Below, piece after piece: positions 14,857 through 21,366 of a DNA stretch of 64,000 nucleotides. The notes under the pieces are model-generated. The model was not told the DNA's origin and made no database searches. It saw only the letters and a program-made list of their open reading frames with translations. This stretch comes from Methylicorpusculum oleiharenae (lineage in GTDB: Bacteria > Pseudomonadota > Gammaproteobacteria > Methylococcales > Methylomonadaceae). Numbering within the stretch: position 1 is the stretch's first letter; each line of letters opens with the position of its first letter. The stretch spans positions 2,820,492 to 2,884,491 of the forward strand of contig NZ_WUTY02000001.1 of NCBI RefSeq assembly GCF_009828925.2. Direction: 5' to 3'. The translations under genes were made by a program, and so were the position numbers.

Positions 14857-16611
14857 TCAGGGCTGGCGTAAAATTTTAGCTTTGAGATCCAATAAGGTCT
14901 GGTGTTTAGGGATGGCCTCCAAGCCCTCTTCAATCTTGGTCAGACTTTCATCATGTTTGCCTTCAACATAAAGTTGTTCTGCCTGCTCACTCAGAATGTC
15001 GGCAATTTTTTTCAGACCCTGTTTTGCTTCTTTATTATACGGGTCGATCTCAAGCACCTGCCGATAAGACCAGAGTGCATTGCTTCCGGTAGGCGCCGTC
15101 AAATAACCCACATCAAAATGAATTTCTGCCAAATCCAATAAATCTTTGATTTTTAACTGTTGCTCAGGGCTAAGTTGAATGATTTTGTCTTGTAACGGAT
15201 CTATCTCTTGAGCGAGTTTAATGTAACCGGCAATTCCGGCAATAAGAGTAATGACAGCCAGGCTGCCCAGGATAATGGGCAGTGCGGATTTGGCCTGCAA
15301 TCCGTTCATGAATTGCTGAACGGATTGAATTCTGTCTTGCCGTTTAAAGGCAAGTCCTTTGGCTAGCGTTTTCCATTGTCTTCGGCTTAATCCACTGACC
15401 ATTTTAGGTTGCAGATTCAGTTCCATAGCTTTTGGGGCTGAAAGTTTTCCGTAGGGATGCTTTCCAGTCAAAATTTCGTAAGTTACACAGGCTAAAGCGT
15501 AAACATCATCGCTGGGGTCCGGATCATTTTCGTAAAACATTTCAAGGCTTGCATAGGCAGGCGTAAGGGCACCCAAATCACGGCGGGCGTCAAATACCGT
15601 TTGATCCTGCTCGGCATCATGACGGCTTACGGCGCAGGCTATGCCGAAATCAAGGACTTTAACTTCGCCGTTCTCTAAAACGCAAACGTTGCCGGGCTTG
15701 AAATCGGAATGGACAATCCCGTGCTTGTGGGCATAAGCCAACGCCAAACATAAACCTTTAATGATGTACCAGGCTTTTTTAAAAGGCAGGCCATTGGGGG
15801 CCTTTTCTGAAATATATCGGCCTAACGATTGACCATCCAGAATCTCCATGGACATGAAGACGTGGCTTTTATCTCGGTCGAAATCGTAAACCGTAATAAT
15901 GTTTGGGTGTGCAAGGGTTTGGGCTTTTTGAGTCTCTCTTTGTAAAGCGATAAAGGCGGTGGCGTTATTTTTAATGTCTTCGTTAAGGATTTTCAACGCC
16001 ACGAAAGGTGATTTGTCTCTTGCTTCCTGCTTACGAAGGTCCAGTGCCTTGTAGACCACGCCCATGCCGCCGCTACCCAGCACATCCTGCAACACGAAAC
16101 GCTCCTTGAGCGTCGAGCCGATGCCTAGCGGACCGTCGTTTGAAGGCGATTCAAAAGATGAATCAGTTTGAGTAAATGACAGTGTGGCTGAGTTTGAACT
16201 GGTTTGCGAGCCTGACATCACAGTCTTTGGCGGTGCCGTTCGTCCTGCCGGATTGATTACAACGGTTGATTCTTCTTCGCCAGTGAAAGCGGATGACACA
16301 GGTGCTTGATAAATCACCCGCGTCTCATCATCTTCCTGTGTTTGCGTCACGGGATTGAACCGCGTTTCATCATTGTCAGTCTGGTTCACAGAGTGGCTTA
16401 AACTGTCTAATGAAGAAAGTAAGCGTAGATAGTGCTCCGGACTCAACTGTTTTTGTTCGAGATTGCTGCGTAAGACATGCCGGATTTTTTCACTTTTTTC
16501 AGGCGTCTGTATGAGTGTTTGCTGTAAAAAAACCTCCAATTGATCCAGGTTCAGTTGCCCTTTACAAAATTGCAGCAACGTATCAGAGATAGCGTCCGGT
16601 TGATTATTCAT
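14857..16611 (-). CDS. Membrane-anchored Ser/Thr protein kinase (Hanks type)
   Basis: A 584-residue kinase. Residues 1-160 are a polar N-terminal region with three similar acidic Thr motifs. The kinase domain spans about 165-440: glycine loop G-S-G-G-M-G-V-V-Y-K at 179-188, ATP Lys207 in V-A-L-K, catalytic loop H301-S-D-F-K-P-G-N and D321-F-G. The catalytic loop has Ser where RD kinases have Arg, so activation-loop control may differ. One membrane helix follows at about 444-465. The outer 110 residues look TPR-like, with helices such as A-E-Q-L-Y-V-E-G-K-H-D-E-S-L. The gene lies 162 bases downstream of a PP2C-type phosphatase gene on the same strand, so the two may act on shared targets. Confidence 0.9.
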   Translation of the reverse strand: MNNQPDAISDTLLQFCKGQLNLDQLEVFLQQTLIQTPEKSEKIRHVLRSNLEQKQLSPEHYLRLLSSLDSLSHSVNQTDNDETRFNPVTQTQEDDETRVIYQAPVSSAFTGEEESTVVINPAGRTAPPKTVMSGSQTSSNSATLSFTQTDSSFESPSNDGPLGIGSTLKERFVLQDVLGSGGMGVVYKALDLRKQEARDKSPFVALKILNEDIKNNATAFIALQRETQKAQTLAHPNIITVYDFDRDKSHVFMSMEILDGQSLGRYISEKAPNGLPFKKAWYIIKGLCLALAYAHKHGIVHSDFKPGNVCVLENGEVKVLDFGIACAVSRHDAEQDQTVFDARRDLGALTPAYASLEMFYENDPDPSDDVYALACVTYEILTGKHPYGKLSAPKAMELNLQPKMVSGLSRRQWKTLAKGLAFKRQDRIQSVQQFMNGLQAKSALPIILGSLAVITLIAGIAGYIKLAQEIDPLQDKIIQLSPEQQLKIKDLLDLAEIHFDVGYLTAPTGSNALWSYRQVLEIDPYNKEAKQGLKKIADILSEQAEQLYVEGKHDESLTKIEEGLEAIPKHQTLLDLKAKILRQP

Positions 16612-16773
16612 TGATAAGTCTCAGCCTGGTAAGTCTTCATGTCATGGATTGGGAATAACAGGGTTTTGCCGGCAGTCTGATGGCCAAATGGCATCTTTCT
16701 TTTCAGGCTCATGGCCTTGAACTATTGCAAGAAGTATAAAGGAATTTCTTGAGGTGGTATTTTCTTCTGACTT

Positions 16774-19035
16774 TTATGAGCGTTTGAACACCATGACCGT
16801 GATATCGTCATAAAAAAAGCTAGATTGGCAGAAATCTTTCAGGTGCTGAATTAATGTGTCGACGATAAATCCCGGCTTTTGATCAGCGTACTTTTCGAAT
16901 AAGGTTTTTAGTCTGTCAATGCCGAATTGTTCACCGGCCGGATTTTGGGATTCTGTCAGTCCATCTGTATAGATGAGCAGGCAATCACCGGCACTGAGTG
17001 TGATTTTCTTTTCTTCGAAGTTAATATTTTGCCTGATTCCTATGATCAATCCGTCGGCGTCCAATTCTTTACAGCTAAAGTTGCATTTTTGGTAAAGCAG
17101 CGGAGGAGGGTGTCCGGCATTGGCGTAACTGAGGGTTTGCGTCGTGGTGTAATATTGAAGGTAAAAGAGGGTAATAAAATGATCGGCGTTATAAAGATCC
17201 TCATAAAGAAAATTATTGAGCACGTCCAAGGTTTGAGCGGGTGAGCCTAACCAGGTGGCTTGTGTTCTAATGGCGCTGCGAGCTGCGACCATCAGCAGGG
17301 CCGGTCCTACCGCATGGCCCGATACATCGGCAATCACCATATCCAGATGCTGCTCGTCGCGGTAAAAATAGTCGAAATAATCACCGCCTATCTGGGTTGC
17401 GGGAAGGCAAAAGCCAGTCACTTCGAAATGGGGTGAAATGATCGGTTTGGCAGGAAACAAGGACGTTTGGATTTGCTGGGCAATTTTCATTTCGTTTTTC
17501 GCGATAGCAAGATTCACCTGCGCTTCCCGAATTTGCCTTTCAGCGGCTTTTCGGCTGCTGATGTCGTGAACAAAACCGCTGAATTCATAGGCATTGCCTA
17601 TTTTAAGCGGTGCAATACTCAGCTCAACCGGAAACTCGGTGCCGCTTCTTCTTAATGCGATTTGTTCGGTTAGCTTATCGATAACCCGGCTGGCCCCTGT
17701 GGTCAGAAAATGGCTGAGTTCTTGATGGACAAGTTTTCGAAATCGTTCGGGTACTATCAGTTCGGCCATATTTCGTCCTATCGCTTCATGGCGTGTCCAG
17801 CCGAACATTTTTTCAGCGCGCTGGTTCCAGTCCGTAATGATGCCGTAAGAATCCATGATGATGATCGCATTCAGCGTGGTTTCAATGATTAGTCGTGTGC
17901 GTTTCTCGCTTTCGATCAGAGCATCTTCATAATGCTTTCTTGCGGTAATGTCACGATCCACGCCTCGCCACTTCAGCAGTTTGCCGTGTGCATCTATGAT
18001 GGGAAGGCCGGTTGATTCGGCGATCACGAGGCGGCCTTCTTTGTGGCGGTAATGGTTTGTCAGCGCATAAAAGGCGTTTTGGACTGATGAGTAAGGCTGA
18101 AAATCGGTTTTATCCTGCTGCGTCAGAAGCTCGGTATAGTGTTTGCCGATAATCTCTTCAGGTTTGTATCCTAAAATTGTTTTTACCGCGTTACTGCAGT
18201 AAATATAGTATCCGTTCGGGTCTTGCTCCCATAACCATTCCCCTGTCATTTCCGCCATTTGTCTAAAGCGTTGTTCGCTTTCCTGAAGGGCGGCTTCGAC
18301 TTGTTTGCGTTCAGTTATGTCTTCTTCTACCGCTAATAAATGAGTAATTTCGCCGCGGCTGTTTTTAATTGCGCTGATGCTCTCAAATGCCCAGTAATCT
18401 TCACCGTTTTTTCGCTGGTTTTTTATCTCTCCCCGCCATTCGCCCTGTTTGAGCAGTTCCTGCCACATTTTTAGATATTGTTCGTCTGAAGTGCCGCCGG
18501 ACTGAAGTATTCTGGGATTATGGCCTAGCAGTTCCTCGTGACTGTATCCGGTCATGGAGCAGAATTTGGGATTGATATATTCGATCCGGCCGCTGGGATC
18601 GGTTATCACTACGGCGCTGGCACTTTGTTCTACCGCAGCGTGCATCAGCAACAAATTTTTTTCCTGTTGCTTGGATGCGCTGAGATCCTGGATTAAAACA
18701 GCAATAGTGGGTTTTTCATTTTTGGCGGGATCGGTCAGTTTGCCCAGTGAAATCATGACGGGGAAAGTCTGTTTTTCACGGTTGATCAATTCAGCTTGAA
18801 AATTAGCAGCCGGGTGATCGTTGTCCAGTCGCGCCAGAGCGTTTTGCCATAATTCAGCAGGACAATGGGGCGACAATATAACGTTAAGAGGTTGGTTGAT
18901 CAGATCGCGCTGCGCATAACCGAACAAGTCGCATGCGCTGCGGTTGAGTTCTTTGATCACCAGTAACAAGGGGTTAGCCTGTTTTATCTCTGCAATCAGA
19001 ATGCTGAATGTTAAGCCGTCAATGAAAGGTTGCAT
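16774..19035 (-). CDS. Multi-PAS sensor with C-terminal SpoIIE/PP2C-type phosphatase domain
   Basis: A 753-residue cytosolic signalling protein. Four PAS/PAC modules are visible, at about 1-125, 126-245, 246-370 and 371-495; cues are the repeated endings V-E-E-D-I-T-E-R-K, V-D-R-D-I-T-A-R-K and V-H-D-I-S-S-R-K. A short coil with I-A-Q-Q-I-Q-T-S-L-F-P leads into an RsbU-like PP2C domain, where G-G-D-Y-F-D-Y and V-I-A-D-V-S-G-H supply metal-binding aspartates and Y-T-D-G-L-T-E a further one. RsbU-type phosphatases usually dephosphorylate an anti-anti-sigma factor. None is nearby, but a Ser/Thr kinase gene follows on the same strand. Signal sensed is unknown; no haem or flavin cysteine motif was clear. 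Confidence 0.9.
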   Translation of the reverse strand: MQPFIDGLTFSILIAEIKQANPLLLVIKELNRSACDLFGYAQRDLINQPLNVILSPHCPAELWQNALARLDNDHPAANFQAELINREKQTFPVMISLGKLTDPAKNEKPTIAVLIQDLSASKQQEKNLLLMHAAVEQSASAVVITDPSGRIEYINPKFCSMTGYSHEELLGHNPRILQSGGTSDEQYLKMWQELLKQGEWRGEIKNQRKNGEDYWAFESISAIKNSRGEITHLLAVEEDITERKQVEAALQESEQRFRQMAEMTGEWLWEQDPNGYYIYCSNAVKTILGYKPEEIIGKHYTELLTQQDKTDFQPYSSVQNAFYALTNHYRHKEGRLVIAESTGLPIIDAHGKLLKWRGVDRDITARKHYEDALIESEKRTRLIIETTLNAIIIMDSYGIITDWNQRAEKMFGWTRHEAIGRNMAELIVPERFRKLVHQELSHFLTTGASRVIDKLTEQIALRRSGTEFPVELSIAPLKIGNAYEFSGFVHDISSRKAAERQIREAQVNLAIAKNEMKIAQQIQTSLFPAKPIISPHFEVTGFCLPATQIGGDYFDYFYRDEQHLDMVIADVSGHAVGPALLMVAARSAIRTQATWLGSPAQTLDVLNNFLYEDLYNADHFITLFYLQYYTTTQTLSYANAGHPPPLLYQKCNFSCKELDADGLIIGIRQNINFEEKKITLSAGDCLLIYTDGLTESQNPAGEQFGIDRLKTLFEKYADQKPGFIVDTLIQHLKDFCQSSFFYDDITVMVFKRS

Positions 19036-19338: not shown

Positions 19339-19992
19339 ATGGCTCAATATGCGGTAATCGGTTTAGGTAGATTTGGCACGACGCTGGGGTTGCAGTTAGT
19401 CAAAATGAATCACGATGTTATGGGAGTGGATTTTGACAGAAAAGTGGTTGAGTCGTTATCCGGTTTACTTACGCACACGGCTATAGCCGATGTCACGGAT
19501 GAAAATGCACTGCTTGAACTGGGTTTGACGGATTATGACGCGGTCATTGTTGCAATTGGAGAGAATCTGCAGGCCAGTTTGCTGTGTGTTGTTCATTTAA
19601 AAAATCTGGGTATAGAAAATCTTTGGGTCAAAGCCACGTCCGCTTCACATCATTTGATTTTAAATAGATTGGGGGTGACACGCATTGTTCATCCGGAAGA
19701 GGAGATGGGCAAAAGAACCGCTCAGGCGCTTTCTTACCCTATGATCAGAGAATACATGTCTTTGGGCAATAAACAGTATATTGTTGAAGTACCCGTGGTT
19801 GAGCGGTTGGCAGGTAGGGCGCTGGTGGATTTGTTAGCGGAAGTGAAAGGCAAGGTGTTTGGGATTCTGATAAAGCGGCGTGACCAGATGTTTCCCTGTC
19901 CGCATGAGCAATTCGTTATTGAGAAGGATGACATTCTTATTTTGGCCGGAGATCGATTGTTTTTGACCAAACTGGCTCCTCAATTGATATAA
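19339..19992 (+). CDS. ktrA: Potassium uptake regulator KtrA/TrkA-type (RCK domain protein)
   Basis: A 217-residue single-RCK protein. The Rossmann nucleotide loop G-L-G-R-F-G-T-T-L-G is at residues 8-17 and the acidic ribose-binding residue follows in G-V-D-F-D. Residues about 135-217 form the RCK_C domain. The length matches KtrA rather than TrkA (about 458, with two copies). The protein binds ATP/ADP or NAD on the cytosolic side and gates the KtrB channel, whose gene starts three bases downstream. It is therefore the regulatory half of a two-gene K+ uptake operon. Confidence 0.92.
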   Translation: MAQYAVIGLGRFGTTLGLQLVKMNHDVMGVDFDRKVVESLSGLLTHTAIADVTDENALLELGLTDYDAVIVAIGENLQASLLCVVHLKNLGIENLWVKATSASHHLILNRLGVTRIVHPEEEMGKRTAQALSYPMIREYMSLGNKQYIVEVPVVERLAGRALVDLLAEVKGKVFGILIKRRDQMFPCPHEQFVIEKDDILILAGDRLFLTKLAPQLI

Positions 19993-19995
19993 GCC

Positions 19996-21366
19996 ATGAC
20001 TCAACTAGAGCTGTTGTGGCGTTCATTAGTGCAGAAAAATGCGCAGTTTCGACATCTGTTGATAAATGCCAGTCCGCCCGCCATATTGATGATTGGTTAT
20101 TTAACGCTTATCTTACTCGGCGCCGGGTTGTTGAAATTGGATATGGCGACCGTGTCATCAATTACCTGGCTTGATGCTCTTTTTACGGCAACTTCGGCCG
20201 TAACGGTAACGGGGCTGGTCGTAGTAGATACAGGAACCGGATTTTCAGTTTTCGGCCAGGTTGTGATTGCCCTCTTGATTCAGGCCGGCGGCCTGGGGTT
20301 TATGACCTTTTCAATTCTTACGATATTGAATCTGGGTAAACGATTGGGTGTAAGGCATCAGTTAGTGGCTTTGGAAGCCTTGAATCAAACCAGCTTCAAC
20401 AGTATCAAGGATGTATCCAAAGCGGTGATTGTCTTCTCTTTGGCTATAGAGGCTATTGGTTTTTTGCTTTTAGTGTTTTGCTGGGTTGACGAATACAGCT
20501 TTTCGAAAGCGGCTTATCACGCTTTTTTTTATACGATTTCAGCCTTTAACAATGCCGGATTTGCTTTGTCTGCCGATGGCTTGACCGCCTATCAGGGGGA
20601 TATTCCTGTTAATCTCATCATCACTGCACTTTTTATTATCGGTGGCATCGGGTTTGTCGTGTTGCAAGATGTCTGGAAAAAATGCGGCTGGAAGAAGCTT
20701 CAGGTTTATACCAAAGTGATGATCAGCAGCACGGTGATGCTCAACTTACTGGCATGGCTGTTGGTGTGGCTATTTGAACGAAAGAATCCCGCTACAATCG
20801 GCGGGTTTTCTTTATCCGATCAATTAACCGCCTCCTGGTTTCAGGCCGTGACGCCCAGAACTGCGGGTTTCAATACCTTGCCCATAGAATCATTAACCGA
20901 TTCCACATCACTGCTCATGCTCATTTTGATGTTTATCGGCGGAGGATCTTTAAGTACCGCCAGCGGCATCAAGTTGGGCACGTTCGTTGTGCTGTTAATT
21001 ACGACCTATTCATTTTTAATGCGGCATGATGAGGTCACGATCATGCGTCGTTCCATTCCGCTGAATATGATCATGAAGTCTTTTGCGGTAACCGTCATTT
21101 CAATGATGCTCGTGCTGCTGGGGTCACTGATGTTATCGGCTATCCAGGAGGCGCCGCTGCTGGATATTTTATTTGAAGTGGTTTCGGCATTAGGCACGGT
21201 AGGTTTGTCCAGAGGCTTGACCGGTGATTTAAATATTGCCGGTCAGTTGTTGATTATGTTGCTTATGTTTGTAGGCCGTCTTGGGCCTTTGACGGTAGCT
21301 TATGTCATTGCCATACCCAAGCAGCGCCGGATTAAGTATCCGTCTATCGACATTCAGATCGGTTAG
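19996..21366 (+). CDS. ktrB: Potassium uptake channel KtrB (TrkH/KtrB family)
   Basis: A 456-residue integral membrane protein built from four M1-P-M2 repeats. The four selectivity-filter loops can be read: T-V-T-G-L after S-A-V near residue 72, F-N-N-A-G-F-A near 185, R-T-A-G-F-N near 290 and L-G-T-V-G-L-S near 396, each with the conserved filter glycine. It is the K+ (often Na+-dependent) pore regulated by KtrA, encoded immediately upstream. The hydrophobic segment after the third filter contains G-G-G-S-L-S-T-A-S-G-I-K, the intramembrane gating loop of the family. Start ATG at 19996, three bases after the ktrA stop. Confidence 0.92.
   Translation: MTQLELLWRSLVQKNAQFRHLLINASPPAILMIGYLTLILLGAGLLKLDMATVSSITWLDALFTATSAVTVTGLVVVDTGTGFSVFGQVVIALLIQAGGLGFMTFSILTILNLGKRLGVRHQLVALEALNQTSFNSIKDVSKAVIVFSLAIEAIGFLLLVFCWVDEYSFSKAAYHAFFYTISAFNNAGFALSADGLTAYQGDIPVNLIITALFIIGGIGFVVLQDVWKKCGWKKLQVYTKVMISSTVMLNLLAWLLVWLFERKNPATIGGFSLSDQLTASWFQAVTPRTAGFNTLPIESLTDSTSLLMLILMFIGGGSLSTASGIKLGTFVVLLITTYSFLMRHDEVTIMRRSIPLNMIMKSFAVTVISMMLVLLGSLMLSAIQEAPLLDILFEVVSALGTVGLSRGLTGDLNIAGQLLIMLLMFVGRLGPLTVAYVIAIPKQRRIKYPSIDIQIG

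Follow-up and report, generated by a model that had tools for sequence, protein, structure and literature searches.

Threonine phosphorylation in type VI secretion systems (T6SSs) relies on PpkA, a kinase described in P. aeruginosa, S. marcescens, A. tumefaciens, and A. citrulli, which acts with a periplasmic or outer-membrane helper protein (TagR, RtkS, or TssW) and phosphorylates Fha or TssL, leading to assembly of the system, with PppA as the antagonist (PMC6082577, PMC3953482, PMC12607579, and PMC10482370; for these and the other articles cited by PMC number, statements refer to the parts available). A second T6SS-encoded kinase, the TPR-bearing PknS of Xanthomonas citri (XAC4127), phosphorylates a sigma factor, EcfK, inducing T6SS genes (PMC13147305). 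Here we describe a pair of genes, coding for a Ser/Thr kinase and a four-PAS PP2C phosphatase, in a 64,000-nucleotide stretch of the Methylicorpusculum oleiharenae genome (contig NZ_WUTY02000001.1, positions 2,820,492 to 2,884,491; hereafter, the window). The favored reading, with a probability of about 0.68, is that two signaling proteins from different circuits stand here side by side, a PpkA-type T6SS kinase and an RsbU-like phosphatase. The pair has the following features:

14857..16611, minus strand: Ser/Thr kinase, 584 aa, putatively PpkA-type and T6SS-associated (PF00069; ortholog co-occurrence)
15400..16092, minus strand: kinase catalytic domain, residues 174-404, with GxGGMG, HSDFKPGN (non-RD), and DFG motifs (PF00069)
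16315..16332, minus strand: acidic-Thr motif DDETRV in the N-terminal extension, candidate autophosphorylation and FHA-docking site (sequence reading)
15220..15282, minus strand: hydrophobic stretch, probable single transmembrane helix, residues about 444-464 (sequence reading, no predictor)
14857..15219, minus strand: C-terminal TPR-like helical domain, probably periplasmic, residues 465-584 (single-sequence model; weak, mostly TPR matches)
16612..16773, minus strand: 162-base intergenic gap (open reading frame coordinates)
16774..19035, minus strand: four-PAS SpoIIE-type PP2C phosphatase, 753 aa, putatively RsbU-like (domains; co-occurrence with an RsbW-like protein)
17560..19008, minus strand: four PAS domains, residues about 10-492 (PF13426 and TIGR00229, four stretches each)
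16780..17355, minus strand: SpoIIE-type PP2C domain, residues 561-752 (PF07228; GGDYFDY, DVSGH, TDGLTE, and DDIT by eye)

Compared by description, the window kinase resembles PpkA in being a Hanks-type kinase with a C-terminal part that follows a single hydrophobic stretch and in having relatives linked to tagF/pppA, fha, and tss genes; several of the known PpkA proteins have one of the envelope partners named above. In contrast to PpkA, it has a TPR-like outer domain, a Sel1-caspase protein as its candidate partner, a gene located 1.43 Mb from that of TssK, and HSD in the catalytic loop, where HRD is the usual form. PknS, also compared by description, is likewise a membrane kinase with an N-terminal extension, a transmembrane helix, and periplasmic TPRs. 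However, it acts on EcfK, whereas the relatives of the window kinase neighbor TagF, PppA, and FHA genes. The phosphatase shares with the RsbU/SpoIIE phosphatases a sensory N-terminus followed by PF07228, as well as the near-constant company of an RsbW-like protein, with a STAS gene beside that of RsbW. It differs from them in having four PAS domains and in the location of the host's STAS and RsbW genes, 1.44 Mb away.

The Pfam searches bear out the domain content proposed in the first-pass annotation, with PF00069 in the kinase (1.1e-38) and PF07228 in the phosphatase (2.4e-45) along with the four PAS stretches; the open reading frame coordinates agree with its description of two minus-strand genes transcribed phosphatase first. 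No kinase name scores above the NCBIfam cut-off. The GxGGMG, HSDFKPGN, and DFG motifs are all kept in 32 of 32 aligned kinase orthologs. An acidic-Thr pattern in the N-terminus is found in 19 of these and missing in 13, one of which is truncated by a contig end, ruling it out as a universal feature of the kinase. The TPR-like character of the outer domain, also proposed at first pass, is weakly supported. The last 120 residues, modeled alone, form five helices in the best of five single-sequence models (pLDDT 80.4, pTM 0.67; 45.8-79.7 pLDDT in the other four). Most of the structures listed as matches from the PDB are TPR proteins, with query TM-scores of 0.28-0.46, but none of them reaches an E value of 0.001, and Pfam finds no TPR in the kinase up to E 0.1.

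Association of the kinase with type VI secretion

Conservation was examined across the host's family in a set of 201 whole genomes. A kinase ortholog, matched through to the C-terminus, is present in 40 of them (the 40 best matches, each scoring at least 485 bits and extending to residue 580; weaker paralogs were excluded). Every one of these 40 genomes also encodes a main-type TssK, the T6SS FHA protein (PF20232), and a homolog of the host's Sel1-caspase protein, compared with 31, 31, and 15, respectively, of the 161 others. TssK is found in 86 genomes, in 71 as the main type and in 15 as weak matches only (125 bits or less), which were counted apart; the FHA protein is found in 71 and the caspase homolog in 55, with second copies dropped and split pieces merged. 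The genes are also physically linked: kinase and caspase genes lie within 5 kb of each other in 28 of the 40 genomes (they are far apart in 5 and on separate contigs in 7), and kinase and TssK genes within 40 kb in 20 (on separate contigs in 11). Among the stretches compared from relatives, eight (L083, L085, L086, L087, L174, L176, L177, and L179) have the kinase within about 20 kb of TssJ, FHA, TssK, or TagF/PppA genes.

The T6SS cluster of the host codes for TssA-TssC, TssE-TssG, TssJ-TssM, Hcp, a ClpV-like ATPase, ImpE, a TagF-PppA fusion, and a TagH-type FHA protein, all recognized by Pfam, and for VgrG, which was named by eye. The stretch of this cluster that was compared has no ortholog of the window kinase. 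The Sel1-caspase gene (L171:9302-11713; G000:C1 4274301-4276712) lies there between the TssJ gene and one for an alpha/beta hydrolase. Its product combines PF00656 with Sel1, and the His and Cys of the catalytic dyad were identified by eye; judged in the same way, the caspase protein and the hydrolase are probable lipoproteins. Sel1 has been reported in 6.0% of bacterial metacaspases (PMC3501461), and the host protein has the same composition as other Sel1-bearing bacterial caspase homologs (metacaspases and orthocaspases), from which it differs in the position of its gene beside TssJ and in its tie to a T6SS kinase. The window kinase is thus best read, from these sequence comparisons, as a PpkA-type T6SS kinase that would have been displaced from its cluster in the host. 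Another region of the host genome (G000:C1, about 4840660-4842048) has a kinase match and a PF13672 phosphatase match, each in a 573-aa open frame, possibly a single kinase-phosphatase fusion.

Relatives outside the family were taken from a scan of a wider genome collection, limited to the best 80 of 571 loci, so that near relatives may be missing. Among the six best of these 80, the kinase gene is directly preceded by TagF/PppA-type genes at four loci and by an FHA gene at another; the last of the six, covered from its contig start, has no TagF/PppA-type or FHA gene upstream. The other 74 kinases are more distant (identity at most 40%), and 72 of their loci show no match to the T6SS reference genes used, with the remaining two (L244 and L251) showing PP2C-type or kinase matches only. 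All five outside kinases that were scanned (L233, L234, L235, L236, and L237) have a C-terminal FGE-sulfatase-type domain, which may serve as a built-in input. A domain of this type is also present in TagR of P. aeruginosa, and the title of one study reportedly links FGE-sulfatase-type proteins to T6SS immunity. If the comparison with TagR applies, the outside kinases carry a fused input, in place of which the host's family would have the TPR domain together with the caspase protein encoded separately.

The phosphatase and a probable partner switch

A match to the phosphatase (E ≤ 1e-150) is present in 73 of the 201 genomes, 40 of which have long matches. An RsbW-like protein is encoded in 94 genomes, including 72 of the 73 with the phosphatase compared with 22 of the 128 others. 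Phosphatase and RsbW genes lie within 10 kb of each other in 19 genomes from 7 genera, out of 36 that have both on one contig. With long phosphatase matches, RsbW is found in 39 of 40 genomes, and within 10 kb in 14. In the host, genes for an RsbW-like HATPase_c_2 protein (145 aa) and a STAS protein (112 aa) stand side by side (L171:17283-18067; G000:C1 4282282-4283066), next to a very large gene, by eye an NAD-type glutamate dehydrogenase, and with RsbW 5.6 kb from the caspase gene. RsbW is beside a STAS gene also in L070-L072; across genomes, RsbW was counted and STAS was not. The host genome has 10 matches to PF13581 and 9 to PF01740, none of them inside the window, which agrees with the first-pass statement that no anti-sigma or STAS gene is nearby. 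Based on these patterns, the RsbW and STAS proteins are likely partners of the window phosphatase, itself probably an RsbU-like enzyme of a partner-switching system.

The first-pass annotation had also proposed that kinase and phosphatase could act in one, perhaps new, circuit with a partner that could not be named. The partner can now be suggested on either side, with T6SS components, FHA, and the caspase protein likely for the kinase and STAS/RsbW for the phosphatase; the proposal survives in part, the two genes being kept adjacent in two genera, and a common target of the pair is possible.

In g10, the other genus that carries the pair, the phosphatase gene follows one for a pyridine-nucleotide oxidoreductase (L063, L064, and L181-L184); the same order is seen in G018, which lacks a kinase ortholog.

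Adjacency of the two genes and competing explanations

The phosphatase is found in 27 of the 40 genomes with the kinase and in 46 of the 161 without it. In 8 of the 27 genomes with both, the two genes are adjacent, in the same order and on the same strand, with 166-475 bp between the matches, and a ninth (G002) has them at the ends of contigs, oriented to match. In the 18 remaining genomes that have both, they are 7.0 and 9.5 kb apart in two, more than 100 kb apart in nine, and on separate contigs in seven. Conservation of the pair, suggested at first pass as a check, thus holds for part of the sample and fails where the phosphatase is missing, in 13 of the 40 kinase genomes; a dedicated two-gene unit as a general rule is ruled out by these 13 together with the 46 that have the phosphatase without the kinase. 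The nine genomes represent two sister genera and one clade of the kinase tree (32 kinases), which groups the host's genus with g10 at support 100/99, although this tree carries a long-branch warning, above all for G060. A single origin of the adjacency therefore suffices. In the stretches compared, the two genera have different genes on both flanks of the pair, which has thus been kept intact in a changing neighborhood. Whether the two genes are cotranscribed is left undecided by the promoter/terminator scan, which found 9 promoter-like sites against 8.2 expected, 5 terminator-like sites against 6.3 expected, and no terminator-like site in the 162-base gap. A repeat scan yielded nothing useful.

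Several observations weigh against the assignment of the two proteins to separate circuits or against the identity of their partners. On the kinase side, the host gene lies outside the T6SS cluster, at the distance given above; 9 of the 40 genomes have the kinase and TssK genes on a shared contig but more than 40 kb apart; main-type TssK is found in 31 genomes that lack a kinase ortholog, and the FHA protein likewise in 31; a search of the host genome with the kinase gives 7 matches at E ≤ 0.001; and a second membrane-type Ser/Thr kinase, kin630 (L210:1103-2995), is encoded at the end of the host T6SS cluster beside VgrG and could be the working PpkA. The antagonist, too, could be another protein, as the host has three PF13672 phosphatases besides TagF-PppA. 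On the phosphatase side, 33 of the 73 matches cover only the part after residue 200 and may have fewer PAS domains, the host phosphatase gene is 1.44 Mb from the RsbW/STAS genes, and two further small STAS open reading frames (113 and 121 aa) are present in the host, so that the substrate could be another one. The pair is adjacent, or consistent with adjacency, in 9 of 9 sampled genomes of the two genera, and two separate circuits need no adjacency. Finally, Fisher values for the co-occurrences ignore the relatedness of the genomes and are hence a rough guide only.

At 61-62% identity, kin630 is found, among the loci compared, besides the host only in five g10 genomes, where it stands in a single block with the kinase and the phosphatase, 26-39 kb from TssK, with VgrG genes on the T6SS side of the block in three of the five. 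Because kin630 sits by VgrG in the host and in a block near TssK in g10, the pair was probably near the T6SS in a common ancestor and was later relocated as a whole in the host's genus.

Among the competing explanations, the one that survives best, while still improbable, is that the PAS phosphatase has been recruited in the two genera as an antagonist of the T6SS kinase, dephosphorylating the kinase itself, TagH, or TssL and tying the weapon to a PAS-sensed signal. The adjacency just described speaks for it, as does the proximity of the kinase/caspase/TssK and phosphatase/RsbW modules, which are no more than 10 kb apart in 6 of the 12 genomes tested (rotation expects 0.7-3.5% per genome) and 7.0 kb apart in the draft genome G003, with a similar closeness of RsbW and caspase genes in the host. 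In addition, the PppA part of the Agrobacterium TagF-PppA is described in the available part of a review (PMC10482370) as not dephosphorylating PpkA targets, which leaves room for another phosphatase. However, five of the six close cases come from one origin, and G102, G113, and G176, which have both modules on one contig and are all misses, were left out of the rotation test. The uneven counts of the two genes set out above also speak against it, and the phosphatase tracks RsbW (72 of 73) far more closely than it does the kinase.

Slightly less probable still is a PknS-like role, in which the window kinase would phosphorylate a sigma factor and thereby induce T6SS genes, leaving kin630 or another kinase to serve as PpkA. 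The architecture of PknS and the separate PpkA of its host (PMC13147305) fit this scheme, and the host T6SS does have a second kinase. Against it stand the best outside relatives, which directly follow TagF/PppA-type genes (4 of 6) or an FHA gene (1 of 6), and the restriction of kin630, in the loci compared, to the host and five g10 genomes. That the two genes are chance neighbors, functionally tied neither to one another nor to the T6SS, could be argued from the 162-base gap, the undecided transcription, and the adjacency in only two genera, but is very improbable given that TssK, FHA, and caspase accompany the kinase in 40 of 40 genomes and given its gene linkage in relatives.

A possible signaling scheme

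Under the favored reading of two circuits, the kinase would receive its activating input at the periplasmic TPR-like domain, with the co-conserved Sel1-caspase protein as the most likely source, and would then phosphorylate threonines of the T6SS, either in TagH or at the N-terminal DDDKTILRP site of TssL. This phosphorylation would recruit the FHA protein and lead to weapon assembly, and the TagF-PppA fusion of the cluster would act as the antagonist of the kinase. An acidic-Thr site is present in 10 of 10 TssL N-termini shown (13 loci given, 11 rows, one fragment). The host site differs from the Thr14 peptide of Agrobacterium, DLPTVVEI, and the available part of the Agrobacterium TssL study describes the Thr14 region as unconserved in distant TssL proteins; the site is therefore a candidate only. 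In the second circuit, the PAS domains may read a small-molecule, redox, or light signal, and the PP2C domain would dephosphorylate the STAS protein, which would then capture the RsbW-like kinase and free the target of RsbW.

The new element in this scheme would be the caspase protein as a periplasmic input of the kinase. We infer this role from its genomic place, which appears to be that of a T6SS input protein; as an alternative, it may be a processing peptidase, a function known for caspase-type domains acting on bacterial toxins (PMC3482391). Among the titles listed in literature searches on caspases with type VI secretion, none is on a caspase as T6SS regulator, nor do the available parts of PMC3482391, PMC9612521, and PMC3501461 describe one, and among those listed for type VI secretion with partner switching or SpoIIE, none links the two; as the literature covered is mostly open access, both results are weak evidence of absence. 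In a more speculative and rather unlikely extension, envelope damage or attack would be registered by the caspase protein, perhaps through proteolysis, and passed to the TPR domain of the kinase, which would arm the weapon; in the two genera, the PAS phosphatase of the STAS switch would act on this kinase as well, so that metabolic state and attack would meet on the kinase.

With these assignments, an orphan kinase-phosphatase pair becomes two testable circuits with named partners. If the scheme is true, a caspase homolog would be an input for T6SS firing, parallel to TagR and RtkS, and not a cell-death or toxin-processing enzyme. The location of the window kinase also illustrates that a T6SS regulator can escape notice when it is encoded outside the cluster.

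Beyond the pair, the window contains genes of the TrkA_N and TrkH potassium-uptake type at 19339-21366, divergent from the phosphatase gene. Among the loci compared, they are upstream of the phosphatase only in the host's genus and were dropped as a target.

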